Assembly: GCA_021372245.1 (NCBI GenBank) | Contig: JAJFUV010000279.1 | Coordinates: 1 to 64,000, forward strand | Length of the DNA: 64,000 bases | Direction: 5' to 3' | Origin: Terriglobales bacterium | Lineage (GTDB): Bacteria; Acidobacteriota; Terriglobia; Bryobacterales; Bryobacteraceae | In this document: in pieces, positions 15,746-30,008 of the stretch | Position numbering within the stretch: the stretch's first letter is position 1 | Layout: each line of letters opens with the position of its first letter | Notes under the pieces: model-generated | Databases searched by the model: none | Seen by the model: only the letters and a program-made list of their open reading frames with translations | Told to the model about the DNA's origin: nothing | Made by a program: the position numbers and the translations under genes

Positions 15746-17403
15746 ACGGCGCGCGCTGGATCGTCGTCCTGGGCGTAATCGCGATCACCGCCCTGAGCTT
15801 TATGGCCTACCCAGGCTGCACATACCTGCAGTCGGACACGCAGGTCTATGTGCCGATCCTCGAGCGGCTTTACAATCCCGCCTTGTTCGCCAACGACCCG
15901 ATGGCCACCGATCCGCACGTTTCGTTCACCATCCTGGACGAAGTGTCCATTGCCGCGCGTAAGGCAACCGGATTGGGCTTCCGCGAGATCCTGTTCGGAC
16001 AGCAGGCGCTGGCGAGGGCCGCAGGCATCCTGGGCGTGTTCTTGATCGCTTCGGCGCTGGGACTTGCGCGTGTGCCGTCGCTCCTGATTGCCGCGGTCTT
16101 CGGTTTGGGCACCTGGATCTACGGTCCCACCGTGATGAGTGTGGAACTGGAAGCCGTCCCGCGCGGATTCGCCATACCCCTCGTCTTATTGGGGGTGGGC
16201 CTGGCGGCCAACGGCCGGGACCTCACCGCAGGACTCGCAGTGGGACTTGCCTTCCTGTATCAGCCCCCGGCCGTGTACCCGTTCTGGATCGTTTACTTCG
16301 TGCTCACGCTGTGGCCCGGCAAACCTGAAGTCATGCAGCGGCGGATCCTGGGCCTCATGCCGCTGCTGGGCGCCGTGGTACTGCTGTTCCTGATGTCCCG
16401 CTGGCAGGTCGGCGAGGCGGAGAAACAGGAATTCCTCAGCCGCATCGACCTGGTGCAGGAAAAGCTCCAGCGGTTCCGCGCCCCTTACAACTGGATCTCC
16501 ATCTGGGGCGGTACTCTCGTTTGGCACTACCTGATCTCGTGGCTGCTGGGCCTTGCCGCGTGCTTCCGGCTGCGGCGCTCGGCAAACCAGGACCTCAACT
16601 TCCTCTTCCTCGGCTTGCCGCTCGTCGGGCTCGCAAGCGTGCCGGTTTCTTACCTCCTGCTCGAGAAATGGAAGCTCGCCATCATCCCGCAGTTCCAGCC
16701 CATGCGCGCTCTGCTGTTCGTCACGGTCGTGTTGCTGGTCGCCGCCGGCGCGGCCGGCTTGAAAGCCGCCTCCGATAGACGGCTGATCGAAGGGATAGCC
16801 TGGCTGTGGGTAGCCCTCCTGGTTCCCATGCAGCTACGCTTCGAGCAACTCTGGACGCTGCCATGGTCCGCCGTGGTAGCCCGGCGCGTGCTCCTGGCCC
16901 TCGCGCTGGCGGTAGGCGCGGGCCTCGCGGCGTATTTGTCCGTCTGGTCCAAGCGCTGGTCCGCCGCCGCGCTGGCGTGCATGATGGTGCTGCCCTTCCC
17001 GATGATGCCGGCCTTCTCCGGGCTGCGGAAGGCCTCGCCCGCCGAACCCGTCGAAATGCGTCAGCTTGCCGATTGGGCTCGCGCCGAGACCCCGACCGGC
17101 GCTGTTTTCCTTTTCCCGGACGCCGGCAAGGGACTGGAACCGGGTGTCTTTCGCGCCTTGGCCCTGAGGGCGGTCTATGTGGACTGGAAGAGCGGCGGCC
17201 AAGTGAACTACCTGCGCCAGTTCAGCGAGAGGTGGTGGGAGCGGTGGCGGCAAAATGCGTCGACGAAGCCAAGTTCGCAGGCATTGTCCAAATATGCCGG
17301 TTGGAGAGTGGACTACATCGTGATCCGCCCCGAACACCGCCTTCCAAATCGTGTTGCGGCGTACGAGAACAGCCGGTTTCTGGTGTACAGAACTTCGCTT
17401 TAA
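15742..17403 (+). CDS. large polytopic membrane protein, GT-C-like
   Basis: A 553-residue protein with roughly ten or more hydrophobic helices. After the first helix comes a periplasmic-type loop with YLQSDTQVYVPILERLYNPALF, an acidic motif of the kind seen in GT-C glycosyltransferase-like proteins and related DUF membrane proteins. The soluble C-terminal part (about 440-553; EMRQLADWARAETPTGAVFLFPDA) resembles periplasmic tails of oligosaccharyl-transferase-like enzymes. A lipid-linked sugar transfer role is possible but unproven. The gene overlaps the TPR gene by 4 bp and ends the unit that starts with the HAD gene. Confidence 0.65.
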   Translation: MNGARWIVVLGVIAITALSFMAYPGCTYLQSDTQVYVPILERLYNPALFANDPMATDPHVSFTILDEVSIAARKATGLGFREILFGQQALARAAGILGVFLIASALGLARVPSLLIAAVFGLGTWIYGPTVMSVELEAVPRGFAIPLVLLGVGLAANGRDLTAGLAVGLAFLYQPPAVYPFWIVYFVLTLWPGKPEVMQRRILGLMPLLGAVVLLFLMSRWQVGEAEKQEFLSRIDLVQEKLQRFRAPYNWISIWGGTLVWHYLISWLLGLAACFRLRRSANQDLNFLFLGLPLVGLASVPVSYLLLEKWKLAIIPQFQPMRALLFVTVVLLVAAGAAGLKAASDRRLIEGIAWLWVALLVPMQLRFEQLWTLPWSAVVARRVLLALALAVGAGLAAYLSVWSKRWSAAALACMMVLPFPMMPAFSGLRKASPAEPVEMRQLADWARAETPTGAVFLFPDAGKGLEPGVFRALALRAVYVDWKSGGQVNYLRQFSERWWERWRQNASTKPSSQALSKYAGWRVDYIVIRPEHRLPNRVAAYENSRFLVYRTSL

Positions 17404-17421
17404 CCCCCTTGCGATCAGTGA

Positions 17422-17427
17422 TAGACT
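17422..17427 (+). promoter_or_regulatory. extended -10 (TGA-TAGACT) of the PEGA gene
   Basis: TAGACT preceded by TG, ending 6 nt before the ATG at 17434. GAGG occurs between the box and the ATG and could act as a weak ribosome site if transcription starts further upstream. Confidence 0.4.
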
Positions 17428-17433
17428 GAGGAC

Positions 17434-17991
17434 ATGAGAATCTGGACATTCGTAACCGCATTGACGCTTGCGTTCTCCCTGGGAATTGCCGCACAGGATA
17501 TGGGATACATCAAGGCCCGTGGCAAGCCGGGACGAGCAGGCGTTTTCGTGGATGGAAAGTACGTTGGACCGGCAGTGCGATTTTCGGTTCCAGAGAAGTA
17601 TGCGGTGACTCCGGGCGACCATGAGGTCACCTTCAAAGATCCCCGTTACGAAGATTTCACCACCAAGGTCACCGTTCAGCCCAAGAAGACCGCGCACCTT
17701 CACTTCAAGATGAAGATGCTGGAACCCGCGAAGCCGCCTTTCGGCAGGCTGCGGTTCGGTGGCGGTGAGGCGGAGTCCTTCATTTCGGTGGCGGCTGGCG
17801 ATGTGAGCCCGGTCTACATTAACGGCAAGTTCTTCGGTTACGTCGACGAATTGAACAACGCCGGCGGCGGGCTGCTTCTTCCTCCTGGCACGTACAAGGT
17901 TCAAGTATCCAGCCCAATTTACGGAGAGATCAACAAGGACGTGACCCTGGAGGCCAACAAGGTCACGATCATTCCGCTTCCCAAGAAGTAA
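17434..17991 (+). CDS. secreted PEGA-domain protein
   Basis: A 185-residue protein with a signal peptide (residues 1-20, FVTALTLAFSLGIAA). The mature part contains two PEGA-like beta modules: one with RAGVFVDGKYVGPA, SVPEKYAVTPGDHEVTF and KKTAHLHFKM, and a second with SPVYINGKFFGYVDEL, LLLPPGTYKVQV and EANKVTIIPLPKK. PEGA modules are surface or periplasmic sandwich domains found in many acidobacterial secreted proteins; their ligand is usually unknown. A hairpin downstream (18032-18071) suggests transcription ends soon after this gene. Confidence 0.82.
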   Translation: MRIWTFVTALTLAFSLGIAAQDMGYIKARGKPGRAGVFVDGKYVGPAVRFSVPEKYAVTPGDHEVTFKDPRYEDFTTKVTVQPKKTAHLHFKMKMLEPAKPPFGRLRFGGGEAESFISVAAGDVSPVYINGKFFGYVDELNNAGGGLLLPPGTYKVQVSSPIYGEINKDVTLEANKVTIIPLPKK

Positions 17992-18031
17992 GCGCCTCTG
18001 TGGGCGACGCACTATTGTTGAGGTTAAACCA

Positions 18032-18071
18032 AAGACCTCTTGTATCCGTCTGAATGGGTACGAGAGGTCTT
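18032..18071 (+). terminator. 16-bp hairpin, likely transcription terminator
   Basis: AAGACCTCT (18032-18040) pairs with AGAGGTCTT (18063-18071); the stem continues inward for about seven more pairs (two of them GU), leaving an 8-nt loop. It is followed by TGTGTTT, a weak T tract. It lies between the PEGA gene and the next secreted protein gene. Confidence 0.6.
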
Positions 18072-18183
18072 GTGTTTCCTGCGACCTACAGATCGGACCG
18101 AGCAACCCGCTGGCACTATGGTGGGCGCGTGCCGAGTTGGAGTTCGCAGGGAGCGGTATCCAGTATTTCAAGTGGTCTCCGGT

Positions 18184-19344
18184 ATGCGTAAGACCTGTGC
18201 CATCATTCCGATAATTGCGTTGATTGGGCTGTTTGGGGCTGTCCCGCCAGGTGCGGCGGCGACCGTGAACGAGATCGTGCGCGTGCTGGCCGGCAAGCCG
18301 GTAGAGCCGTCCAGTTCGCTCTCGAGTTTGACGGAATCGCCGTCCTGGAAAGCTCACGCGGAGGAATTTGACCGCGTCTGGAAGCGGGTGGAAACCGATC
18401 GTTTGCCTGCGATGCGGCGATTCGAGGCTTCGGAACTGAGCGACGTGCGCCTTGCCCGGCGCACGATGCTCTATCCTTTCGGCGGTCCCGATGCCTTGAA
18501 TGCCGTCACGCTATTTCCCGACAGCCCGGCCTACGTGCTGATTGGCCTGGAACCGATCGGCAGCCTGCCGGATGAAACCATGCTGCGTACGGACCTGGAC
18601 CGCCTGCTCGCTTCCGTGCGCGAGAGCCTGGACTCGCTGTTTCAACGCAGCTTCTTCATCACGCGTGAGATGGACAGGTCGCTGCGCGGGCAGAAGTTCA
18701 ACGGCGTACTGCCGGACATCCTGGTGCAACTCGTGCGCCTGGATGCCGAGATCCTGGCAGTAACGCCGGTGCAGGTGGCAGAAGGCGGCGTACTCGCGCC
18801 GTGGGACCGCGCGAAAGTCAGCGCACGGGCGGTGCGCAATCGCGGCGTCGAGATCGTTTTCCGCCGCGCCGGCCGGACCACGCCGCAGCGTCTGTATTTC
18901 TTTACGGTAAACCTCGGGCCTAGGCTCGCCCGCAACCAAGCTTTCCTCACCTATCTCGACCGCACCGCACCGTTCGTGACTTTCTTGAAGGCGACCAGCT
19001 ACATGCCCCATCACAAGGGGTTCCGCATGTTCTGTTGGAAGGTGCTGGAGACCAGCGCGACGATCCTGCAGGACGACTCCGGCATCCCGTTCTCCTACTA
19101 CAGGACGCCGGAGTGGCAGTTGCAGCTTTACGGCGAGTACGAGAAGCCGTACGGAAGCTTCGAGTACCTGGTGCAGCCCGACTTGCACCAGGCGTACATG
19201 GTGCCGGGAGCCGCCAAGAAACTGGATTTCCGGATTGGGTACGGATACAGCAAGGTGCCTTCGAACCTTCTGCTGGCGCGCCGCAAGGCCGCGCCCGGAA
19301 CTGCGCGTTTGGACCACGCGGCGCCTTCCACAATTGCACAGTAA
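18184..19344 (+). CDS. secreted protein of unknown function
   Basis: From the ATG at 18184 the protein has 386 residues with a signal peptide (MRKTCAIIPIIALIGLFGAV, cleavage near GAAA). The mature part has a conserved-looking core (RTMLYPFGGPDALNAVTLFP, SPAYVLIGLEPIGSLP, VEIVFRRAGRTTPQRLYFFT, LKATSYMPHHKGF, RTPEWQLQLYGEYEKPYGSF). I do not recognise the family. The frame is open upstream to 18040, but that part crosses the hairpin and lacks a signal. It may be transcribed with the BNR gene 59 bp downstream. Confidence 0.65.
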   Translation: MRKTCAIIPIIALIGLFGAVPPGAAATVNEIVRVLAGKPVEPSSSLSSLTESPSWKAHAEEFDRVWKRVETDRLPAMRRFEASELSDVRLARRTMLYPFGGPDALNAVTLFPDSPAYVLIGLEPIGSLPDETMLRTDLDRLLASVRESLDSLFQRSFFITREMDRSLRGQKFNGVLPDILVQLVRLDAEILAVTPVQVAEGGVLAPWDRAKVSARAVRNRGVEIVFRRAGRTTPQRLYFFTVNLGPRLARNQAFLTYLDRTAPFVTFLKATSYMPHHKGFRMFCWKVLETSATILQDDSGIPFSYYRTPEWQLQLYGEYEKPYGSFEYLVQPDLHQAYMVPGAAKKLDFRIGYGYSKVPSNLLLARRKAAPGTARLDHAAPSTIAQ

Positions 19345-19367
19345 ACCGCTGCATAGAACGCAAGAAG

Positions 19368-19396
19368 TTGCGGTGGGCCATCGCGAGTAGCACAAT
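19368..19396 (+). promoter_or_regulatory. promoter of the BNR gene at 19404 (TTGCGG-N17-CACAAT)
   Basis: -35 TTGCGG at 19368-19373 and -10 CACAAT at 19391-19396 with 17-bp spacing; the -10 ends 7 nt before the ATG at 19404 and 4 nt before a GTG at 19401. It lies partly over the end of the preceding gene region. Confidence 0.45.
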
Positions 19397-19403
19397 TCAT
19401 GTG

Positions 19404-20525
19404 ATGCTCACCGTTCGAGTGGCTGTCTGTCTCCTCTCCGCGGCGGTTCTGATCCTGCCCGCCGCGAGTCCTGAAAAGCCCGTATTCGAGACCGGTGTCG
19501 TGGCCGCGTCGAATCCAGCCACGGCGGTTTACAACGGGCTCCCCAACATCGTCGCGACGCCGTCCGGCAAGCTTATTGCGGCATGGAGCGCCTGGTCCGC
19601 CGGTCCCAATCCCAAGCTGCGCATCGTGACGGCGCAATCGATCGATGGCGGCAGAACATGGTCCGCGCCGGTCACGCGAATTGACAATCCCGGAAAGACC
19701 GATGCCGACGCCAACTTCGTCCTTGACGGCTCGCGCATCCTGCTGCTCAGCACTACCGTGCCGGAGCCGGGGCGCATCATTCGGACGGAGACCTGGCTCA
19801 CCGTAAGCGAAAACGACGGCGAAACCTGGAGCGCACCGGTGTTGGTGCGACAACCCCGCAAGTACACGGTCGGCAAGGTGCACGTGGGACACAAGCTGCC
19901 CGATGGGAGGCTGGCCGTGGGCTATAGCTGGGACATCTTCTGCGAGCAGGACATGGCACCGCACACGGAAGGCGAGATGGACCTGAAATCCGGCTTCATG
20001 TTCTCGAGCGACGGCGGGAAAAGCTGGCGGGCGGGAGGCGACATTTACGCACGTCCGCCGAAGATGACGCCCTATTCGACTAACGGGCTCGATGAACCCG
20101 CCAACGTCATCCTCGACGGCGGAGAGGTATACGCGTTGCTGCGAAGCGGCACCACGCGTCTCTGGGAGGCCCGAAGCAAAGATTGGGGTGAAACGTGGTC
20201 CGAGCCGCTGCCCAGCCCCCTCGTGGGCCATAATGCGCCGGCGGCCTTGTGGCGGCTACGCGGCACCAAGGACGTCGTCGTGGTTTGGGACAACTCTCCC
20301 CGCAACCGCTACCCGCTCGCCGCCGCGCTGTCCGGGGACGGCTGTTACAGTTGGTCGCGCGCGAAGGTGATCGCCGCCAGTCCCGGCAAACAGGCCTCCT
20401 ACCCGTCCGTTGCGGAAGGTGCCGGCGGGGTGGTGGTCGCGGTCTGGCAACAGGATCTCGCCGATCGCAAGGGGCGCGAAATCCGGTACGCGAGGTTCAA
20501 TAAGGCGTGGCTTCTGAGCGAGTGA
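19404..20525 (+). CDS. secreted BNR/sialidase-like protein
   Basis: A 373-residue protein from the ATG at 19404, with a signal peptide (LLSAAVLILPAAS). It carries about five Asp-box-type repeats (SIDGGRTWSAP, SENDGETWSAP, SSDGGKSWRAG, SKDWGETWSEP, SGDGCYSWSRA), so a six-bladed sialidase-like propeller is expected. Most acidobacterial members are annotated as exo-alpha-sialidase by fold only; hydrolase activity and substrate are not established. It is clearly paralogous to the protein at 60732-61820 (shared GHNxPxALWRL and NSPxxRYPL). Its end is 5 bp before the aminotransferase gene, starting a run of five probably co-transcribed genes. Confidence 0.85.
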   Translation: MLTVRVAVCLLSAAVLILPAASPEKPVFETGVVAASNPATAVYNGLPNIVATPSGKLIAAWSAWSAGPNPKLRIVTAQSIDGGRTWSAPVTRIDNPGKTDADANFVLDGSRILLLSTTVPEPGRIIRTETWLTVSENDGETWSAPVLVRQPRKYTVGKVHVGHKLPDGRLAVGYSWDIFCEQDMAPHTEGEMDLKSGFMFSSDGGKSWRAGGDIYARPPKMTPYSTNGLDEPANVILDGGEVYALLRSGTTRLWEARSKDWGETWSEPLPSPLVGHNAPAALWRLRGTKDVVVVWDNSPRNRYPLAAALSGDGCYSWSRAKVIAASPGKQASYPSVAEGAGGVVVAVWQQDLADRKGREIRYARFNKAWLLSE

Positions 20526-20530
20526 ACGAT

Positions 20531-21457
20531 ATGCAAGAAGAACCTGTGGTTTACATCGACGGGCGCTACACACCGGCCTCGCAGGCGCACATCAATATCT
20601 TCGATTTCGGCATTGTGCTGGGTGCAACGGTCACGGACCTGATGCGCACCTTTCACAAGCGGCCCTATCGGCTGGAAGATCATGTGCGCCGGTTCCACGA
20701 AAGCTGCAAGTACGCCCGGATTCCGGTTCCGCTCGGTCCGCGCGAAGACGCGCAGATCACCGCGGAACTTGTGCGCCGCAACGCCGAATTGCTGCCCGAA
20801 GGGGGCGAACTCTGCGTGGTGTGGTTCATCACGCCCGGCGAGAACATGGTCTATGCCGGCTTGGCGGCCGCCCCGGCGAACCTGGAACCCACTTTCTGCA
20901 TTCACAGCTTCCCTATCCCGTTCCGGTTGTTCGCCCACCTGTTCACCGAAGGCGCGCACCTGGTGATCCCGTCGACGCGCCACGTTCCACCCGAATGCGT
21001 CGATCCGAAGATCAAGAACCGCAGCCGGCTGCACTGGTGGCTGGCCGAACAGGAAGCGCACCTGGTGGACCCGAAGGCCATGCCCCTGCTGCTGGACCTG
21101 GCGGGCAACCTGACGGAAACCAGCGGGTCTAATGTGCTTATCGTGAAGGATGGGGTGGTACTCTCTCCAGCGCCGCGCAACATCCTGCTGGGCGTGAGCC
21201 GCAAGGTGGTGATGGAACTCTGTACCGCCTTGGGCATTCCGTTCGCCGAACGCGACTTGCAGTTGCACGACGCCCTCACCGCCGACGAGATCTTCCTTAC
21301 CACCACGCCCTATTGCATGGCCCCCGTGACGAAGGTGAACGGCCTGCCGGTCGGCAGCGGAGCGCCGGGCGGGCCGGTATTCGAGAGGATTCTGAAAGCC
21401 TGGAGTGAACAAGCGGGATTGGACATCAGAGCGCAGATGACGGGAACGGTTCGATGA
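20531..21457 (+). CDS. class IV PLP-dependent aminotransferase
   Basis: A 308-residue protein from the ATG at 20531. The N-terminal YIDGRYTPASQAHINIFDFG and RLEDHVRRFHES match the branched-chain/D-amino-acid aminotransferase fold. The likely PLP Lys is in VDPKIKNRSRLHWWLAEQ, the glutamate region is GNLTETSGSNVLIVKDG, and DEIFLTTTPYCMAPVTKVNG is the phosphate-binding region. It could be a branched-chain, D-alanine or (R)-amine type; sequence inspection cannot decide. An upstream in-frame GTG (20522) is possible. The following SDR gene overlaps by ATGA. Confidence 0.85.
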   Translation: MQEEPVVYIDGRYTPASQAHINIFDFGIVLGATVTDLMRTFHKRPYRLEDHVRRFHESCKYARIPVPLGPREDAQITAELVRRNAELLPEGGELCVVWFITPGENMVYAGLAAAPANLEPTFCIHSFPIPFRLFAHLFTEGAHLVIPSTRHVPPECVDPKIKNRSRLHWWLAEQEAHLVDPKAMPLLLDLAGNLTETSGSNVLIVKDGVVLSPAPRNILLGVSRKVVMELCTALGIPFAERDLQLHDALTADEIFLTTTPYCMAPVTKVNGLPVGSGAPGGPVFERILKAWSEQAGLDIRAQMTGTVR

Positions 21458-22239
21458 GCGACGGAAACACGATGTTCCGATTGGATGACAGGATCGCGTT
21501 GGTTACCGGCGGAGCGGGCATCGTCGGGCGGCATATTGTGGAAGCGCTGGCCGAGGCCGGCGCAACGGTGTGGGTAGCATCCCGCGACGAAGCTAGATGC
21601 GCCGGGATCGCCGCGCAACTGGCCGGCCGCGGGCTGAACGCCGCCAGCGCCGCGTGCGATTTCACCGATGAGGCGGCCATCAAGGCGCTGCGCGACAAAA
21701 TCCTGCGCCGCCACGGCCGGTTGGATATCCTGTTCAACAATGCCGTGGCCCGCGCCGGCGGCGACCTGCGCCATTCCACCCTGGACGAGTGGGAGCAGAC
21801 CATGAAGCTCAATTCGAGCGGCCTGTTTCTGGCCTCGCGCATACTCTCTGAACCGATGCAGGAAGCGCGCTCGGGCTCCATCGTGAACATCGCGTCCATT
21901 TACGGCGTTGTGGGGCCGGACTTCTCCATCTACGAAGGCACGGAGATGACCAACCCCGCGTATTACGCGTTCGCCAAGGGCGGGATGATCAACTTCACGC
22001 GCTATCTGGCCAGTTACCTGGGGCCATACAACGTCCGCGTGAATTGTCTTTCGCCAGGCGGGTTCATCAGCGAGGGGCAGGACGAGCGCTTCCGCAAGGC
22101 CTACGCACGGCGCACGCTGTTGGGCCGCATGGCCGTCGGCGAGGACATCAGGGGACCCGCCGTTTTCCTGGCGAGCGACGCTTCGCGCTACATCACCGGC
22201 CAGAACATTATGGTCGACGGCGGCTGGACAGCCATCTGA
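21454..22239 (+). CDS. short-chain dehydrogenase/reductase
   Basis: A 261-residue classical SDR. The NAD(P) motif VTGGAGIVGRHI is near residue 18, NNAVARAG follows at about 91, and the catalytic Ser (NIASIYG) and the YxxxK pair (YYAFAKGG) are present. The C-terminal MVDGGWTAI is standard. It should reduce or oxidise an alcohol or ketone with NAD(P)(H); an insert (EGTEMTNPAYYAF) before the catalytic Tyr resembles SDRs from sugar-acid or N-acylaminosugar pathways. It is coupled to the aminotransferase by a 4-bp overlap. Confidence 0.88.
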   Translation: MSDGNTMFRLDDRIALVTGGAGIVGRHIVEALAEAGATVWVASRDEARCAGIAAQLAGRGLNAASAACDFTDEAAIKALRDKILRRHGRLDILFNNAVARAGGDLRHSTLDEWEQTMKLNSSGLFLASRILSEPMQEARSGSIVNIASIYGVVGPDFSIYEGTEMTNPAYYAFAKGGMINFTRYLASYLGPYNVRVNCLSPGGFISEGQDERFRKAYARRTLLGRMAVGEDIRGPAVFLASDASRYITGQNIMVDGGWTAI

Positions 22240-22271
22240 AAACTGCATTCCCGCTACACTGAAAGGTTCTG

Positions 22272-23384
22272 ATGCGCATCGATTCGATATCTGTCTACCA
22301 TGTGGCCATGCCGTTGGTCTACCCGTTCCGCACGGCCTACGGCAATGACGACACCATTGAGAGTGTGCTCGTGCGGATGGACTCCGGAAGCGTAACCGGG
22401 TGGGGCGAGGGCGCACCGTGGCGTCTGCCGGGATACAGCCCGGAATGGGCCGCCGGCGCCTTTATGCTCGTGCGCGATTACCTGGCGCCGCAAGTGGTGG
22501 GCAAGGACATCGATACCCCGGACCAGTTGCAGGCCGCCATGTCCGGCATCAAGGGGAACTACTTTGCCAAAGGCGCGGTGGATACCGCCTGGTGGGATCT
22601 CCAATCGCGGCTCCGTGGAGAACCGCTGTGGCGGACGCTGGGCGGTAGTGAGCCCCAGGTCCGGGTGGGCGCGGATTTCGGCGTCATGGAAACCATCGAC
22701 GCACTGCTCGCCAAAATCGATGAAGCGGTCCGCCAAGGCTTTCCCAGGGTGAAGCTGAAGTTCCGCCCCGGTTGGGACATCGATATGGTGGCGGCTGTGC
22801 GCGGCGCCTTCCCGGAACAGACGTTCCACATCGACTGCAACAGCGCCTGGACGCTCGATGCGCTGCCTATGTTCAAGAAGCTCGACCGTTACAACCTGGC
22901 CATGATCGAGCAGCCTCTGGCCCACGACGATCTGATCGACCACGCCACACTGGCCCGGCAGATTGCCACGCCGGTTTGCCTGGACGAGAGCATCACGTCG
23001 CTCGACCGCGCGCGCAAAGCCATACAGACGAAGGCCTGCGGCTATGTGAACCTGAAGCCCGGCCGTGTCGGCGGGTTGACGGTGGCCGTAAAGATCCACG
23101 ATCTGTGCCGCGACAACGGCATTCCCTGCTGGGTGGGCGGCATGCTCGAATCCGCCGTCGGCGCACAGCACTGCCTGGCGTTGGCCACGCTGCCTAATTT
23201 CACTTACCCGTCCGACGTATTCCCAAGTTCGCGCTTCTATAGCCAAGACCTCGCGCAGCCGGAGCTGACGCTTTCCGGCCCCGGACGGATGACCGCACCG
23301 GACGCGATGGGGGTGGGCGCTGTTCCCGATGCGCAAGAGTTGGAGAGGCTCACGCTCGCAAGCGCCCGTGTCAGGCCGGAGTAA
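22272..23384 (+). CDS. enolase-superfamily racemase, N-acylamino-acid racemase/dipeptide epimerase/MenC-like
   Basis: A 370-residue enolase-superfamily enzyme of the MLE subgroup. The catalytic acid/base KxK is VKLKFRPG (Lys161, Lys163), metal ligands are Asp188 (HIDCNSAW), Glu213 (MIEQPL) and Asp238 (CLDESI), and the opposite-face Lys262 is in NLKPGRVGG. This set is shared by o-succinylbenzoate synthase, N-succinylamino-acid racemase and dipeptide epimerases; the CWVGGMLESAVG segment favours the OSBS/NSAR branch. With an alanine racemase and a class IV aminotransferase next door, racemisation of amino acid derivatives is more likely than menaquinone synthesis. A weak -10-like TACACT and AAAGG lie just upstream of the ATG. 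Confidence 0.85.
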   Translation: MRIDSISVYHVAMPLVYPFRTAYGNDDTIESVLVRMDSGSVTGWGEGAPWRLPGYSPEWAAGAFMLVRDYLAPQVVGKDIDTPDQLQAAMSGIKGNYFAKGAVDTAWWDLQSRLRGEPLWRTLGGSEPQVRVGADFGVMETIDALLAKIDEAVRQGFPRVKLKFRPGWDIDMVAAVRGAFPEQTFHIDCNSAWTLDALPMFKKLDRYNLAMIEQPLAHDDLIDHATLARQIATPVCLDESITSLDRARKAIQTKACGYVNLKPGRVGGLTVAVKIHDLCRDNGIPCWVGGMLESAVGAQHCLALATLPNFTYPSDVFPSSRFYSQDLAQPELTLSGPGRMTAPDAMGVGAVPDAQELERLTLASARVRPE

Positions 23385-23387
23385 CGT

Positions 23388-24506
23388 ATGAACGATCAAC
23401 TACGCTCATGGGCGGAAGTTTCGCTCGATCGGATTGCCGCCAACTACCGTAACATTCGCGCCGTGGTAGGGCCGCAGACCGCTGTGGCCTGCGTGGTCAA
23501 ATCGGAGGCTTACGGCCACGGAATGGTGGCAGTTGCCAAGCGCCTGGTTGCCGAGGGCGCGCCGTGGCTGACGGTGACATCCACGCAGGAAGGCATGGAA
23601 CTTCGCCAGGCCGGCATCCAGGACGCCCATGTGTTGGTGATGGCCGATGCACTGCGGGCCAACTTCGCCTCCATGCTCGACCACCGGCTCACGCCGGCAG
23701 TCCACGATCTTGCCGATCTGGCCGTGTTCAACGAACTGGCATTGGCCCGCGGCGAGCGGGTCCGGGTGCACCTGAAGATCGATAGCGGTATGGGGAGGCT
23801 CGGCGTGCCGGCCGACGCCCGCGCAATCGCCGAAGCCGCCGGGGCCTGTCCGAACGTCGAAATCGAGGGATTGATGTCGCACCTGGCCTCGTCCTCGGAC
23901 TTTCCCGCCACGCAAACCGGGCAGCAGGTTCAAACCTTTACGCGTGTGGCGAGCGAACTGGCCGGCGCCGGCATCCGGCCTCGATTGCGGCACATATCGG
24001 CCAGCGGCGGCGTCGTGTACGGCTGTCGAGATGCCTGGCTGGACATGGTGCGCATCGGCCTGAGTCTTTACGGCTACGTGCCGGCGACAACCGGACCAGC
24101 GCCCGCCAGCCTGGTCGACGTGAAGCCCGCCCTGGCCTGGAAGACTCGCGTGCTTTCCATCAAAGAACTCCCCGCAGGCGTCCCGGTGGGTTACGGCGCA
24201 AGGCACATTACGAAGCGCCCCACGCGGATCGCCGTGGTGGGGGCCGGCTACGCCGACGGCGTCTTCCGGCAGCTCTCCTGCCGGGGGCTTGTCCGCGCCG
24301 CGGGCGTGTGGGTGCCTATGCTGGGCGCAGTTTCCATGGATATGTCCACCATCGACGTGACGGACGTGGCCGGCGTGAAGCCGGGCGACGAGGTGGAATT
24401 GCTGGGCGAAGGCTTCGATGCCGACAACATCGCCGCTCTGGCAGACACAATCTCCTACGACGTGCTCTGCAAGATCCAGCCCCGCGCGGAACGCATCTAC
24501 GTATAA
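23388..24506 (+). CDS. alanine racemase family protein
   Basis: A 372-residue fold-type III PLP enzyme. The PLP Lys is in CVVKSEAYGHG (Lys38), HLKIDSGMGRLGV lies in the barrel, and the second catalytic Tyr is in VPVGYGARH. The barrel and the C-terminal domain (MLGAVSMDMSTIDVTDV, GDEVELLGEG) are complete, so it should be active. It interconverts L- and D-alanine for peptidoglycan, or serves a catabolic or broad-specificity role. It starts 3 bp after the enolase-type racemase gene, which suggests shared function. Whether this is the cell's main alr or a dedicated second copy cannot be told. Confidence 0.9.
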   Translation: MNDQLRSWAEVSLDRIAANYRNIRAVVGPQTAVACVVKSEAYGHGMVAVAKRLVAEGAPWLTVTSTQEGMELRQAGIQDAHVLVMADALRANFASMLDHRLTPAVHDLADLAVFNELALARGERVRVHLKIDSGMGRLGVPADARAIAEAAGACPNVEIEGLMSHLASSSDFPATQTGQQVQTFTRVASELAGAGIRPRLRHISASGGVVYGCRDAWLDMVRIGLSLYGYVPATTGPAPASLVDVKPALAWKTRVLSIKELPAGVPVGYGARHITKRPTRIAVVGAGYADGVFRQLSCRGLVRAAGVWVPMLGAVSMDMSTIDVTDVAGVKPGDEVELLGEGFDADNIAALADTISYDVLCKIQPRAERIYV

Positions 24507-24599
24507 AAATATCGTCCAATGAGACTGGCACCTAAGGGAGTGGCCGTCTTCGGCCGATATGCTGGAGAGAAACGTTCCTCATAGGGTATTAGCGTCGCA

Positions 24600-25535
24600 A
24601 TGAAAGTACTCGTCGCGGACGACAGCGTCATCGATCGGCACATACTGGAGAGTTCTCTGCGCAAGTGGTCCTACGAGACGGTGACCGCGTGCGACGGGAT
24701 CGAGGCCTGGGAACTGCTGCAGCGCCCCGACGCGCCCCGGCTGGCCGTGTTGGACTGGATGATGCCCGGGCTGACGGGGGTCGAAATCTGCCAGCGCCTC
24801 CGCCGCGAGATCCACAACGATTACACTTACGTCCTGCTGCTCACTTCACGGAGCGAGAGGGAGGACCTGGTGGAAGGCATGGACTCAGGCGCGGATGACT
24901 ATATCAGGAAGCCTTTCGACAACCACGAATTGGAGGTCCGCTTGCGCGCGGGCCGCCGCATCGTCGAATTGCAGGCCGAACTGGTTGCGGCGAGGGAAGC
25001 TCTGCGCGTGCAGGCGACCACCGATCCGCTCACCCGCATCTGGAATCGCGGCTCGATCACCGAGATCCTCGAAAAGGAGATCCATCGCGCCCGGCGTGAA
25101 CGCAGTTACCTGGGCGTGGTTCTCGTCGATCTCGACCATTTCAAGACCGTCAACGATACGCACGGCCACTTAGCCGGGGACGCTGTCCTGCACGAAGCCG
25201 TGCGCCGCATGCAGGCATGTATGCGGCCGTACGACTCCATCGGCCGCTACGGCGGAGAGGAGTTTCTGATCGTACTGCCTGGCTGCGACGCTGGCGCTAC
25301 CGTGGAACACGCCGAACGCCTGCGCATAGCCCTCTCGTCCGAGGCCATGAATCTGGCAGAAAGCGGCGTCATCCTGACGGCGAGCTTTGGTTGCACGGTA
25401 GTCGCTCCGGACGCGCAGCCCACTTTTGAACAGGTGGTTCACTGTGCCGACGAAGCTCTCTACAAAGCCAAAGACAGTGGCCGCAACGCAGTGGGCTTGG
25501 TCACCCCGCTGGTCGCTTTGGCCCAATCCCGCTAA
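24600..25535 (+). CDS. response regulator with diguanylate cyclase output (REC-GGDEF)
   Basis: A 311-residue protein. The receiver domain (1-115) has the acidic pair ADD, the phosphorylation site Asp52 (AVLDWMMPG), and Lys in YIRKPF. A coiled linker (about 120-138) leads to a GGDEF domain with the intact signature GGEEF (218-222), so c-di-GMP synthesis is expected. The inhibitory site RPYD (209-212) sits five residues before it, so product inhibition is likely. No kinase is adjacent. It is convergent with the Tad-like genes, with a strong hairpin between them. Confidence 0.93.
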   Translation: MKVLVADDSVIDRHILESSLRKWSYETVTACDGIEAWELLQRPDAPRLAVLDWMMPGLTGVEICQRLRREIHNDYTYVLLLTSRSEREDLVEGMDSGADDYIRKPFDNHELEVRLRAGRRIVELQAELVAAREALRVQATTDPLTRIWNRGSITEILEKEIHRARRERSYLGVVLVDLDHFKTVNDTHGHLAGDAVLHEAVRRMQACMRPYDSIGRYGGEEFLIVLPGCDAGATVEHAERLRIALSSEAMNLAESGVILTASFGCTVVAPDAQPTFEQVVHCADEALYKAKDSGRNAVGLVTPLVALAQSR

Positions 25536-25584: not shown

Positions 25585-26046
25585 TCAGTCTGTCGCGCCC
25601 AGGCTCTCCACCGCGACGGAAGCCCTGAAATCGCGACTGGTGAAAGTCCTTGCGATGTAAGGTGAGAAGAATGCCAGCGGGTAGTTGCTGATGGAAATCT
25701 CGATGCGATCGGAAGGGGTCCCGACATCGTAACGGCTCACCGATACCATGGCCGTAGTCAGGCCGAACAATCCGGTGGTCGCGCCGGTGGGAGCGGTGGG
25801 ATTGTTGTACACGACGTAGTTCTGGATGGCGGTTGGATTGTAAGAATGTACGGCGGCGTAACGCGCGCCGGTCCTCACGCGCTCACCGAGAAAGCTGATT
25901 CGGAACAGCATCAGGCCGATATCGAGAATGCCGACAAAGACCACCGTTACGGCCAGCATGATCAGTGCGCCTTCCAGCATCCAGTGGCCTCGCTCGCGAG
26001 GATTGCGCCCGTGGTTCTTAGTGATGGTTTCGCTCCTTTTCGTCAT
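25585..26046 (-). CDS. TadE-like pseudopilin
   Basis: A 153-residue protein with an N-terminal basic leader ending RERG, followed by HWMLE, so Gly at -1 and Glu at +5 fit the prepilin-peptidase motif of Tad/Flp pseudopilins. A hydrophobic helix follows (GALIMLAVTVVFVGILDIGLML) and then GERVRTGARYAAVHSYNP, the usual TadE continuation. It would be a minor component of a Tad-type pilus or secretion system. It starts at the ATG at 26046, overlapping the upstream TadE-like stop by ATGA. No tadA, tadB, tadC, rcpA or flp gene is within the window. Confidence 0.82.
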   Translation of the reverse strand: MTKRSETITKNHGRNPRERGHWMLEGALIMLAVTVVFVGILDIGLMLFRISFLGERVRTGARYAAVHSYNPTAIQNYVVYNNPTAPTGATTGLFGLTTAMVSVSRYDVGTPSDRIEISISNYPLAFFSPYIARTFTSRDFRASVAVESLGATD

Positions 26047-26486
26047 GACTTGTAAAGTCCTGTGTATTTCATCGTCACGCGCGGTTTGTTATTGAAGTTG
26101 AAGGTGGTGAAGATCACCGGGACGCTGAAGTTTTTCACACTGACGGTAATGGTTTTCGGCAGGCCGGCTGCGTCCGCCGTCCAGGTCACGTTTACGTTGG
26201 ACTTGTTCAGCAGCCACAGCAGCTTGTTTCCGGTGCCTTGCGGGTTTCCGTAGACGACCATGTTCTGCACCTGGCCGACGAACGTGTGGTTGGGTGAGTC
26301 GAAGTTCACTCGGGACGCATAGCGGGCGCCCTGATCCACGGCCGCCAACAAGCGGTTGTACACGAACATCGAATAGCCGAACTGAAACACACCCGTGAAG
26401 AGCGCCCACAGCAGGGAGAAACTGAGGGCGAACTCTATCATCGCGGTGCCGCGCCGGCCGTTTCTGCAAGGTGATTTGCGCTGCAT
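26043..26486 (-). CDS. TadE-like pseudopilin
   Basis: From the ATG at 26486 (MQRKSPCRNGRRG) the protein has 147 residues. The leader RRG is followed by TAMIE, again Gly -1 and Glu +5, and the helix FALSFSLLWALFTGVFQFGYSM. VDQGARYASRVNFD matches TadE proteins. A strong ribosome site GGAAGGG lies about 6 nt before the ATG, in the 11-bp gap after the TadG-like gene. A longer frame upstream overlaps the TadG-like gene and lacks pilin features. Confidence 0.84.
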   Translation of the reverse strand: MQRKSPCRNGRRGTAMIEFALSFSLLWALFTGVFQFGYSMFVYNRLLAAVDQGARYASRVNFDSPNHTFVGQVQNMVVYGNPQGTGNKLLWLLNKSNVNVTWTADAAGLPKTITVSVKNFSVPVIFTTFNFNNKPRVTMKYTGLYKS

Positions 26487-26497
26487 TTTTCCCTTCC

Positions 26498-27616
26498 TCA
26501 CCGGAACAGCTTCACTTTGTACAAGTCGCCTGGGGCCCCTGCCCCCGGTTTTGCGGCACCTTCGAGGGCGGGACCGATGTACTCGCCGCACACGGGATCA
26601 TTGTTGTTATTCCAGGAACCTGGGCGGAGGAAGAACTGGGCGAAGCCGACCACCAGGGCTGGAGAACCCGCGTTGTTCACCGGCACCACCAGCACGCGCC
26701 GTCCGTTGCCGCTGTAATGTGCGTAGTCGGCCGCGGTAGTGTCCGTATCCTGGTAGAAACGCTCTTCCAGGGCCGGACCCACGTGCTTGTTGCCTTGCAC
26801 ATGGTCGATTGCGGTTCCCTCGGACAACGGCTCAGCCAAGTGGTAGTCCATATTCACGATGGCGTCGCGGAGGGCGGAGTTCCCATTTCCCTGACCGATG
26901 TCAATGTACCCGCGGTTGCTCGATCCGCCTCCGGGTGTGAAGCCCACATCGCCCGTGCACACGCCGCCTGCCTTCTTGCGCTGCCCGGGTGGGGCCCACT
27001 TGAGATCGTACATTTGGCCGCGCGTAAAACCGAACTCCTGGGCTTTGTCGGCAATATGCGCGTCGGGTGAGAACGGCGCAACACCTTCCCCAATGCTCGT
27101 TTCCTTGCCCTGGCCCGCCGTGGCGCTCGACGAGATGCTCTTGGAGTTCGGTACGCCTGGAAATACACGCAGGAAATAGAGCGGAAGGTTCGCCGTCGTC
27201 GTCACACGAACGAATCGGTAGCCAGAGCCGGTTGCCGGGTTTGCCTGATAAGTTCCAGCCAGGGTCTGCGCGAAGCTAACCTCGGGAGCGGACACTAGCT
27301 GTGTTGAAAAATGCCAGCGGTTAGGCGAACTGGCTCCGTTTGGGCCAGATGTGGCTATCGAGCGGGCGGTGCTGATTCCTTGCGTGGTTCCATCCAGTTC
27401 GTAGGCTGCCACCAAGGCAGCGGCATCCACGAAGGTCTGTAACTCGTTCTTAACAATGTACATGCGGCTGAGGTCGGCCGTCAGGCCCAACATGCCGATG
27501 AAAACGGTCATTCCCGCGGCCGTGGCAAATAGAGTCACGCCGCGACGCGACGATGCGCGTACGTTGGACGCGGTGGCACCACACCCCAGGTTTGCGGAAT
27601 CTGTCTCTCGCCTCAT
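26498..27616 (-). CDS. TadG-like pilus assembly protein
   Basis: A 372-residue protein. The N-terminal RRG-VTLFATAAGMTVFIGMLGLTADLSRMYIVKNELQ followed by TFVDAAALVAAYELDG is the Tad-domain signature of TadG-like proteins, though the Glu at +5 is missing (here Ala). The rest is a large extracytoplasmic domain with Gly/Asn-rich loops, lacking an obvious complete vWA MIDAS motif. It is the first gene of a three-gene pseudopilin unit. The 154 bp upstream contain a possible TTCGGC-N16-CATAAT promoter; this is weak. Confidence 0.8.
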   Translation of the reverse strand: MRRETDSANLGCGATASNVRASSRRGVTLFATAAGMTVFIGMLGLTADLSRMYIVKNELQTFVDAAALVAAYELDGTTQGISTARSIATSGPNGASSPNRWHFSTQLVSAPEVSFAQTLAGTYQANPATGSGYRFVRVTTTANLPLYFLRVFPGVPNSKSISSSATAGQGKETSIGEGVAPFSPDAHIADKAQEFGFTRGQMYDLKWAPPGQRKKAGGVCTGDVGFTPGGGSSNRGYIDIGQGNGNSALRDAIVNMDYHLAEPLSEGTAIDHVQGNKHVGPALEERFYQDTDTTAADYAHYSGNGRRVLVVPVNNAGSPALVVGFAQFFLRPGSWNNNNDPVCGEYIGPALEGAAKPGAGAPGDLYKVKLFR

Positions 27617-27770: not shown

Positions 27771-29312
27771 CTATTCGCCCGTGCTGCGGTGCGCCACTTG
27801 AAAGTGGCTCAGCGTGGAGGCATAGGAAGAGAGTCCCTGGTAGAGCGCCTCGGCGATCTTCTGCCGCTGGTCGGCGCGCTTCAGCAGGGTCCCTTCACGC
27901 GGATTGGTGACGAAACCCACTTCTGTGAGGACCGAGGGCATCGCGGCCCCGATCAGCACCACGAACGGCGCTTTCTTCACCCCGCGGTTCTTCGTGGTGC
28001 CATTCTTCGAAGACAGCACGTAGAGGGAAGACTGCAACCGGGAAGCAAACTCCTTCGATTCCTCAACCTTGTCGAGTAGCGCAATCTTTTTGATAAGGTC
28101 CTGCAGCTCATGGATAGTCTTGCTCGACGTCGCATTCTCGCGGGCCGCCACGTCCAGCGCATCGCCCGAAGTAGTGAAGTTCAGGTAATAAGTTTCGGAT
28201 CCTGACGCCGCCCGATAGCGCGAGGAATTGACGTGGATGGAGAGGAACAGGTCGGCCTTCGCCTCATTAGCGATTAGGGTGCGGTCTTCCAGTGAGACGA
28301 AAGTGTCGTCCTTGCGCGTATAGACTACCGCGCTGCCCAATCCTTGTTCGATGAGCGGGCCCAGGCGCAGGGCTATGTCCAAAACCAGGTCCTTTTCCAG
28401 AACGCCGCCCGGACCGATAGTTCCTGTGTCGTGTCCGCCGTGGCCAGGGTCAAGCACCACCCGCCCGACCTTCAAGCCCAGTGCACGCGTGAGCGAGCGT
28501 CCACCGTCAAGATTCTGCTTGGCGGGGCTGGCTGGCGAAACGGCAGCCGGCGGAGGAAGAGGCTTCGGCTTGGCAGACGCCACCACCGGCTTAGGCGCTG
28601 CGTGAACTGGCGGCGCCGGGCGCGTGGAAAGCGCCTGAAAACCGGGATATGGCGCCGATTCGATGTTGTAAGCAATCGTCGGCGGGGGAGGCAGTGCAGT
28701 GTGCCGCTGAGTCGCCTTGCGCGGCGCCTCGGTCAACGTAAACGGCCTTGGCGTCAGCTTGGGCTTCAACTTGGGCGCCGGAATGAAGGCGGCAGGCGGC
28801 GGTGCTGGCGTTTCCGTCAAATGCTGGACGCCGGTCCTGCTTTGAGAAATGACAGGCACCGGCCCTGCGCCCCGGCGGCGCACCTCCACCACGAGGCGCT
28901 CCGGAGTGGTGAGATGGGAAGCCTTGTACTCGGCCGCCGCATCCAAATCCAGCACCACGCGCGTCTTGCCGGGTTCCGTCTCAGCGACGCGGATCTGCTT
29001 CAGAATACCGTCGCCAACCGGAATGATGTGTATCCTGTCGGTCCCCTGCGCCGGCTTCACCCCAATCAGGTCGAAGAAGAGGCGATCCGGATCCCGCAGC
29101 CTGTCATGCTTGTAACTGAATTCGCCATTGGTTTCTATGGCGACCCGCGTCGTATCGCCCAGCGACCAGAAACGCACGCTGGTGACCCTGAGCGGAGCCG
29201 TCCGTGCCTCCGCGGAAGACAGGACGCCCGCGGAGGCAACGAGAGACACCACCACCCAAACCCACATGGGCCTGGTTGATCGCGACACAGTTGGCGGTAT
29301 CAGAGAAAACAT
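27771..29312 (-). CDS. N-acetylmuramoyl-L-alanine amidase with AMIN domain
   Basis: A 513-residue secreted cell-wall hydrolase. A signal anchor (about 16-36) leads into an AMIN domain (about 38-147; VTSVRFWSLGDTTRVAIET, DPDRLFFDLIG), which binds peptidoglycan. A proline/alanine-rich linker covers about 150-285. The Amidase_3 catalytic domain (about 287-498) has zinc ligands in LDPGHGGHD, EKDLVLDIA and LSIHVNSS, and the catalytic Glu in LTEVGFVTNP. It cleaves the bond between MurNAc and L-Ala during cell separation or remodelling. It starts 6 bp after the lytic transglycosylase gene, so the two wall hydrolases form an operon. Confidence 0.92.
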   Translation of the reverse strand: MFSLIPPTVSRSTRPMWVWVVVSLVASAGVLSSAEARTAPLRVTSVRFWSLGDTTRVAIETNGEFSYKHDRLRDPDRLFFDLIGVKPAQGTDRIHIIPVGDGILKQIRVAETEPGKTRVVLDLDAAAEYKASHLTTPERLVVEVRRRGAGPVPVISQSRTGVQHLTETPAPPPAAFIPAPKLKPKLTPRPFTLTEAPRKATQRHTALPPPPTIAYNIESAPYPGFQALSTRPAPPVHAAPKPVVASAKPKPLPPPAAVSPASPAKQNLDGGRSLTRALGLKVGRVVLDPGHGGHDTGTIGPGGVLEKDLVLDIALRLGPLIEQGLGSAVVYTRKDDTFVSLEDRTLIANEAKADLFLSIHVNSSRYRAASGSETYYLNFTTSGDALDVAARENATSSKTIHELQDLIKKIALLDKVEESKEFASRLQSSLYVLSSKNGTTKNRGVKKAPFVVLIGAAMPSVLTEVGFVTNPREGTLLKRADQRQKIAEALYQGLSSYASTLSHFQVAHRSTGE

Positions 29313-29318
29313 CTGACC

Positions 29319-30008
29319 CTACCGTGTTCGAATATGCAGCCTTCCCTCCGCGTCGACGAATTGCTCGATCGAACGATATTGCGGTTGCTCCGGCGCGGCA
29401 GACGGCGGTTTGGATGCAGGCGGCGCCGCGGCCGAAACTTTTCTGGCTTCGCTGTATCGCTTACCCACCTTCTGGACGTAATCCCTGGTCTCCCGGTACG
29501 GGGGAATCCAACCGTACTTCACCACCGCGCCTTCGCCGGCATTGTAAGCAGCCAGCGCTAACCGTTCGTCTTTGAAAGCCTCTTTGAGGTACTTGAGATA
29601 TCGGACGCCGCCCTCGATGTTCTCGCGCGGGTCGAAGGTGTTCTTGACACCGAAGCGCCGCGCGGTGGCCGGAATCAACTGCATGAGACCTTCCGCGCCT
29701 TTGTTGGAAACGGCGAGTGCGTTGTAGCCGCTCTCTGCCTGGATGACGGAATCGACCAGCAGGGGATCCACGTCGTGGCGGCTGGCAGCGTCCTGAACGA
29801 TACTCCGGAGATCGTGGCGCGCGGAGTCGGCCTCGGTTGTATTGCCCGCATCCGCCGGGGGCGTCACCACCACGGTACGCACCAGCTTGCCAGTACGTTT
29901 ATTCGTGCGCACCACACTGGTGACCCTGCCGGTGGGCGAACCGGCTGTCGCCACCGCCACCCCGATCAGTGCCATCATCGGCACCAAAATCTTAGAACAA
30001 AACGACAT
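29319..30008 (-). CDS. lytic transglycosylase (SLT domain)
   Basis: A 229-residue protein with a signal peptide (LVPMMALIGVAVATAGS). The SLT domain (about 65-185) has the catalytic Glu in VIQAESGYN (Glu92-Ser93), GLMQLIPATARRFGV, NIEGGVRYLKYL and LALAAYNAGEGAV. It cleaves glycan strands to 1,6-anhydroMurNAc ends. The C-terminal tail after a Pro/Ala linker repeats a motif (RSIEQFVDAEGRLHIR) that looks like a short DUF4124-like or wall-anchoring tag. It is the promoter-proximal gene, followed after 6 bp by the amidase. Confidence 0.92.
   Translation of the reverse strand: MSFCSKILVPMMALIGVAVATAGSPTGRVTSVVRTNKRTGKLVRTVVVTPPADAGNTTEADSARHDLRSIVQDAASRHDVDPLLVDSVIQAESGYNALAVSNKGAEGLMQLIPATARRFGVKNTFDPRENIEGGVRYLKYLKEAFKDERLALAAYNAGEGAVVKYGWIPPYRETRDYVQKVGKRYSEARKVSAAAPPASKPPSAAPEQPQYRSIEQFVDAEGRLHIRTR

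Follow-up and report, generated by a model that had tools for sequence, protein, structure and literature searches.

Positions 19404 to 24506 of the window, by which we mean the whole 64,000-nucleotide stretch of contig JAJFUV010000279.1 that was analyzed, carry a forward-strand run of genes for a class IV pyridoxal phosphate (PLP)-dependent aminotransferase (AT4), a short-chain dehydrogenase/reductase (SDR), an enolase-superfamily protein (ENO), and an alanine racemase (ALR). Our preferred reading, which we judge to be evenly poised between right and wrong, is that AT4, SDR, and ENO together make up a small unit that metabolizes an N-substituted amino acid and that ALR is a separate neighbor. 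ENO would catalyze a two-lysine, metal-dependent 1,1-proton transfer that interconverts the α-carbon configurations of an amino acid carrying an N-acyl group (or another N-substituent). A stereospecific deacylase, of either AstE/AspA or M20 type and with its gene elsewhere in the genome, would then release the amino acid, whose amino group AT4 would move; SDR would reduce or oxidize the AT4 product. ALR, at the end of the same gene run, would make D-alanine for the wall. We infer the substrate of ENO, the order of the steps, and the presence of the deacylase elsewhere in the genome; the evidence for every function but that of ALR is weak to moderate. The pairing of racemase and deacylase is proposed because M20 and AstE genes neighbor members of the ENO clade, because the ENO fold is racemase-like, and because racemases are known to be used in biocatalysis in tandem with a stereospecific amidohydrolase (PMC7431475).

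The enolase-superfamily protein and its clade

ENO (22272 to 23384) contains MR_MLE_N and MR_MLE_C domains. Its best solved relative by sequence was the N-acylamino acid racemase (NAAAR) 2zc8, at 312 bits compared with 115 for dipeptide epimerases, and comparison of folds gave the same order: the ENO model (predicted local distance difference test score, pLDDT, of 93.8) matched 2zc8 with a Z score of 56.0 and a root mean square deviation of 1.2 over 368 residues, against a Z score of at most 47.6 for the dipeptide epimerases. ENO keeps K161, K163, D189, N191, E214, D239, K263, and R266 (Amycolatopsis numbering), of which K163, K263, and R266 are conserved in 22/22 members of the ENO clade; Arg266 has a functional role in N-succinylamino acid racemases (NSARs). 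ENO also passes the NCBIfam model TIGR01928 (279.6 bits; cut-off, 200.65), which is named for o-succinylbenzoate synthase (OSBS, or MenC) and which covers NSARs as well. That ENO is the MenC of the model name is a reading to which we give almost no credence, and it was set aside on the menD and mqnC evidence. In a menaquinone check that covered menD and mqnC, the genome, rated 100% complete, gave no menD over the cut-off (best, 37.4 bits; cut-off, 244.2) and one mqnC (493.8 bits; cut-off, 428.1). A table in PMC3914697, with its columns as we read them, gives MenC in 4/5 Acidobacteria, MenF and MenB in 0/5, and MqnA/C/D in 5/5, a pattern that fits if the present genome is acidobacterial, as its gene content suggests. 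With mqnC present and no menD above the cut-off in this genome, ENO is very unlikely to be MenC and is, by sequence comparison, a putative racemase of the NSAR/NAAAR-like kind. A sequence-only reading of this stretch had likewise called ENO NSAR/epimerase-like and seen no standard menaquinone cluster; the latter agrees with the menD and mqnC results, and the NSAR side of the former is further supported by the deacylase neighbors of relatives described below.

Among 100 related genomes, 91 had an ENO-like match at an E value of 1.5e-66 or better, nearly all 37 to 44% identical; a match of 60 to 61% was found in G086 and G094 only. No second ENO match was listed in the window's own genome down to ∼100 bits, so the common kind of ENO seems to be absent from it. 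In a 35-protein tree, ten common-kind ENOs and three solved racemases were split from the window ENO and 21 others with support of 100/100. With an outgroup of eight other enolase-superfamily proteins from the window's genome, which have long branches, the window ENO group stayed intact (21 rows, 100/100); the solved racemases in both trees were limited to the same number, three. Once the outgroup was added, the solved racemases and the common kind no longer formed one group, so the window clade may be nested among them, and the wording "sister clade to NSAR" was dropped. ENO is a variety of N-acylamino acid racemase-type enzyme that has apparently gone unstudied: a literature search of titles and abstract openings, with most subscription papers outside it, returned no description of the clade or the gene set. 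In the alignment, K161, N191, and a large part of motif 289-294 are missing from the Pirellulales enolase (L021:10001-11110), which probably has a different activity.

At position 135, the 22 clade members have Asp (12), Cys (5), Thr (3), or Ala (2), and none has Ser. Ser135 is found in all five solved racemases read (2zc8, 1sja, 2ggj, 1wue, and 1wuf) and in 29/29 correctly translated rows of the phylum's common ENO homologues, a tally that leaves out one row of 30 (L048, a wrong-strand reading) and counts the same genes twice in L093/L026 and L100/L051; Ser135 would thus appear to define the NSAR/NAAAR family. In the ENO model, residue 135 lies in strand 134-136, at the end of barrel strand 1 and directly before the strand that carries K161 and K163. 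In the enolase superfamily, this is the side of the barrel on which the active site lies. The rows with Asp135 have Trp at position 50 in 8/12 cases and Tyr in 1/12; they do not form one group in the tree, where the M20-linked rows branch from within them.

Asp135 and an aromatic residue 50 could line a pocket that accepts an N-substituent or ring with a positive charge, for example, a dipeptide ammonium or an ectoine-like amidinium. The Asp135 enzymes might then have a new racemase or epimerase function, on a substrate that known N-acylamino acid racemases refuse, through an undescribed catabolic route that would include AT4, SDR, and AstE- and EutA-like partners and would span the window's phylum, Verrucomicrobiota, and Alphaproteobacteria; we regard this as unlikely. 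Still more doubtful, in our view, is a dipeptide epimerase engaged in muropeptide recycling, in which ENO would epimerize a wall dipeptide, Asp135 would hold its ammonium group, and AT4 and ALR would use D-amino acids. The 12/22 clade members with Asp135 would suit such an enzyme, as would the Actibacterium ENO, whose neighbors resemble a dipeptide-type ABC transporter and which has an RpiR-type regulator gene nearby (best model, 42 bits, far under the cut-off). However, the dipeptide epimerase models were not passed (NF011708, 90.6 of 343 bits; NF041118, 75.2 of 500 bits), N-acylamino acid racemases came first by both sequence and fold, and the wall hydrolases of the window (27771-30008) are on the opposite strand, beyond four other genes. 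These results give little support to two suggestions of the sequence-only reading, a dipeptide epimerase and the handling of muropeptides or D-amino acids released from other cells. The wall hydrolase genes, on the minus strand and without a link to the run, encode AMIN plus Amidase_3 and SLT transglycosylase proteins; three minus-strand open reading frames (25585-27616), TadE/TadG-like by eye, lie between them and the run.

The aminotransferase-dehydrogenase pair and its deacylase neighbors

AT4 (20531 to 21457; PF01063, Aminotran_4, 132.6 bits) starts at an ATG, with an alternative GTG at 20507, and overlaps SDR (21454 to 22239; PF13561, adh_short_C2, 168.4 bits) by 4 bp (ATGA). AT4 belongs to an unassigned subgroup of the class IV enzymes and reached no NCBIfam cut-off; it failed to pass either the D-amino-acid transaminase model TIGR01121 (87.0 bits; cut-off, 277.45) or the branched-chain aminotransferase (BCAT) model TIGR01122 (120.5 bits; cut-off, 245.55). 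The structural model (pLDDT, 85.4) was a close match to archaeal BCATs and (R)-transaminases. In all 12 aligned AT4 members the PLP lysine is kept, within K[NH]RSR[LM]H, and positions Y95/R97, the BCAT Tyr/Arg pair, are changed. Close AT4 homologues (55 to 66%) occur in 7/100 relatives and, in a 396-genome draw of the phylum, in the window's genome plus 4 others, which gives 11/491 other genomes if the two 396-genome draws (for AT4 and for ENO) are taken as identical. AT4 and SDR are paired in G072, G073, and G074 (AT4, 60 to 66% identity; SDR, 63 to 64%), and in G073 and G074, where both genes are called, they again overlap by 4 bp. This gene order, retained by three genomes from another family, marks the pair as a genuine bicistron.

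A gene for an AstE/AspA-type deacylase is convergent to SDR in these genomes, at a distance of ∼7 bp (G073), 1.3 kb (G072), or 3.5 kb (G074). Two more genomes, G086 and G094, carry an AstE/AspA homologue in a same-strand row with AT4 and an SDR other than that of the pair; the G094 row (L088:12223-17205) reads PALP (threonine-synthase-like), Gfo/Idh/MocA, AstE/DoeB-like, SDR, and AT4. Three of the AT4-linked deacylases had DoeB/EutE as their best match, at 105.4 to 129.4 bits (cut-off, 402.7). AstE/AspA genes are therefore near AT4 in 5/11 other genomes, compared with 1/51 other sources (L191, an ENO locus; Fisher test, 0.0004), a value that counts related genomes separately (by genus, the link is 2/5) and that places the window, with AT4 and no AstE, among the 51; with the window counted as an AT4 locus, the figures are 5/12 and 1/50.

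Deacylase genes of another type accompany relatives of ENO, as judged, here as at the AT4 and alr loci, from gene calls that miss or mis-start some genes (BNR included) and were checked by tblastn where possible. In Verrucomicrobiota, the phylum of G494, the ENO clade was found in 14/387 genomes, at 16 places (one of them L022). An M20 peptidase/amidohydrolase gene directly adjoins ENO at 10 of these places (L195 to L204), 7 of which also have FumA-like and AtuA-like genes (L197 and L199 to L204); by residue 135, eight of the ten lack Asp, L195 has it, and L204 was not scored. The cluster (L199:4863-9370; similar in L197 and L200 to L204) consists of ENO, M20, FumA-like, AtuA, and DUF4387 genes, with a FumB-like gene in L203 and often a divergent LysR-regulator-like gene. 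An AstE/AspA gene is present at 1/16 places, L191, where two different clade ENO copies on a 16.7-kb contig have an MFS transporter gene and the AstE/AspA gene between them (L191:7353-12942). The common kind of ENO has other neighbors: a GNAT-like gene at 8/10 loci (by tblastn, with marginal Pfam scores) and a MazG-like gene at 7/10 (by blastp group, with Pfam on one). This MazG-GNAT-enolase neighborhood (L093 to L102, e.g., L098:7925-10565), which also has EamA, MFS-like, SDR, or amidohydrolase genes, resembles the known pathway of a succinyltransferase and an NSAR, and the model would give its enolases the name MenC.

AT4 and ENO also tend to occur together: a close ENO was found in 4 genomes of the window's phylum, and 4/4 also have a close AT4 (1.4e-7 if genomes are independent; by genus, with 2 out of at least 211, the value is 4.5e-4).

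Several observations weigh against a metabolic unit of AT4, SDR, and ENO. The co-occurrence rests on two genera, and AT4 and ENO are adjacent in the window only, not in the co-occurring relatives. Three ENO genomes outside the phylum have no close AT4: none was close in the Actibacterium or Verrucomicrobia genome, and the Pirellulales genome has a homologue at 40%, the best of the three. The link to AstE was tallied after it had been noticed, with queries from loci already showing the gene. Queries for M20, AstE/AspA, EutA-like, and GNAT proteins found no homologue in the 64-kb window, which was the only part searched. The ENO clade stands apart from the solved racemases, whose Ser135 it does not share, and just 2/11 Asp135 relatives in the tree have a deacylase neighbor (L191 and L195). 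Other Asp135 relatives adjoin genes of different kinds: an AMDase/EutA-like gene ∼80 bp upstream of ENO in G148 and G395 (L109:8840-10772), a PfkB kinase and a sugar-isomerase-like gene on either side of the L192 ENO, and three Gfo/Idh/MocA genes beside the L193 ENO. By these counts, the wider ENO clade has a strong link to deacylases, but for the closest relatives of the window ENO the link is thin. The sugar-related neighbors of L192 and L193 would fit a role outside amino acid metabolism, with the Asp135 members acting on a sugar acid or hydroxy acid; the retention of K163, K263, and R266 throughout the clade and the deacylase neighbors of other members argue against this, and we consider it improbable.

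The alanine racemase and the makeup of the run

ALR (23388 to 24506), with Ala_racemase_N and Ala_racemase_C domains, passes the model TIGR00492 (307.2 bits; cut-off, 168) and has K38 within KSEAYGHG and Y269 within VGYGAR, the catalytic Lys/Tyr pair. With the catalytic and metal residues of ENO also kept, the active sites of both racemases are intact, as the sequence-only reading had it. A search of the window's genome with Ala_racemase_N found five places over the cut-off, of which ALR scored 206.6 bits and the runner-up 74.2, and the ALR protein had a single match there at an E value of 1e-15 or better. Because it is the sole match in the genome, ALR is best read as the housekeeping, cell-wall alanine racemase; an extra catabolic copy was rejected on this count and on its family-consistent placement. 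Across 22 genomes, 17 (the window's own included) had one match each and 5 had none (G010 and four f30 genomes), and in the family tree the window ALR grouped with nine others of its family (support, 99/99). At 7 of the 9 same-family loci, alr adjoins, or lies within ∼0.7 kb of, a gene for a protein starting RIALLGTRGIPA..GGFETFAEE; L152, L158, and the window lack such a neighbor. G054 has a homologue of window 26498-27616 (29%, 97 bits) that converges on alr at ∼100 bp, and the downstream side of the window alr may be an old arrangement; the view that alr has moved was softened for this reason. The closeness of ALR to ENO says little about function.

The first gene of the run encodes a BNR repeat (sialidase-like) protein (19404 to 20525, plus strand; PF13088, Pfam BNR_2, 101.4 bits), in the same direction as AT4 and with a signal-peptide-like start as judged by eye, and a tentative member of the functional unit at most; no BNR homologue over 70 bits was found in the relatives' 46 AT4, ENO, ALR, and SDR loci. 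Pfam domains of all five products score over their cut-offs. The BNR gene ends 5 bp before the AT4 ATG, SDR and ENO are 32 bp apart, and ENO and ALR are 3 bp apart, so the close-packed run described from sequence, with overlaps or gaps of at most 32 bp after the BNR gene, is all present, on one strand. The run may be cotranscribed. Scans of 17300-24700 were uninformative on this point, with no sigma-70-like site (shuffles, 1.5) and terminator-like sites at chance level.

A single four-gene pathway for amino acid stereochemistry, as the sequence-only reading proposed, fared poorly. In the relatives compared, none of which is from the window's own genus, none of 14 alr loci had a homologue of ENO or AT4 above 70 bits nearby, and the AT4-SDR pairs of G072 to G074 had neither ENO nor ALR alongside; the genes are thus unlinked in relatives, an outcome that the sequence-only reading had itself named as refuting it, and a conserved four-gene operon was rejected. 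AT4, ENO, ALR, and an SDR do share a 161-kb contig in G094. Its alr neighbors look, from their first residues, like DnaB, RplI, and RpsR, and this clustering was set aside as support for the gene set. AT4-SDR, ENO, and ALR could also be three unrelated units brought together by chance in one lineage, which we hold to be a real but lesser possibility. Besides the separate occurrence of the AT4-SDR pair and of alr, the richness of the genome in MR_MLE_C (17 places, 16 over the cut-off), a large enolase-superfamily set, speaks for this. Against it stand the 3- and 32-bp gaps on one strand, the presence of AT4 with ENO in 4/4 same-phylum genomes with a close ENO, and the AstE-type neighbors that AT4 and ENO each have elsewhere.

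Comparison with known systems

The MenC name given by the NCBIfam model is very likely wrong for ENO, in a genome that appears to make menaquinone otherwise. A clade with an altered active-site residue, and with deacylase genes beside it in another phylum, offers a clear test set of enzymes and substrates, and a naturally occurring racemase-deacylase route could thereby join the NSAR/acylase tandem of biocatalysis.

Compared with known Alr enzymes, ALR is a full equivalog match in single copy, and the window differs in the upstream neighbors only. Ectoine and hydroxyectoine catabolism (EutA and DoeB/EutE; PMC5924519) resembles the present loci in the EutA-like gene beside ENO in G148 and G395 and in the DoeB-like deacylase near AT4 in two genera. 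The EutA-like protein scored 131.2 of 318 bits and the DoeB-like proteins 105.4 to 129.4 of 402.7, in a comparison that covered EutA and DoeB/EutE; with scores so far under the cut-offs, a full ectoine pathway is not supported. The dipeptide epimerases 1jpm, 3jva, and 3q45 share the superfamily fold with ENO at 25 to 26% identity, and their models are not passed; the two-lysine chemistry is common to ENO and the L-Ala-D/L-Glu and dipeptide epimerases. The common MazG-GNAT-enolase kind of the phylum belongs to the same superfamily subgroup as ENO (mostly 37 to 44% identity), but it keeps Ser135 and goes with a GNAT-like gene, of which the window has none. The racemases of Thermus (2zc8), Deinococcus (1r0m), and Amycolatopsis (1sja) are alike in fold (Z score, 52 to 56; 38 to 40% identity) and share the catalytic and metal residues and Arg266 with ENO, whereas ENO belongs to a distinct clade with different gene neighbors, has GADFG in place of GVSxG at 133-137, and has Ser in place of G315.

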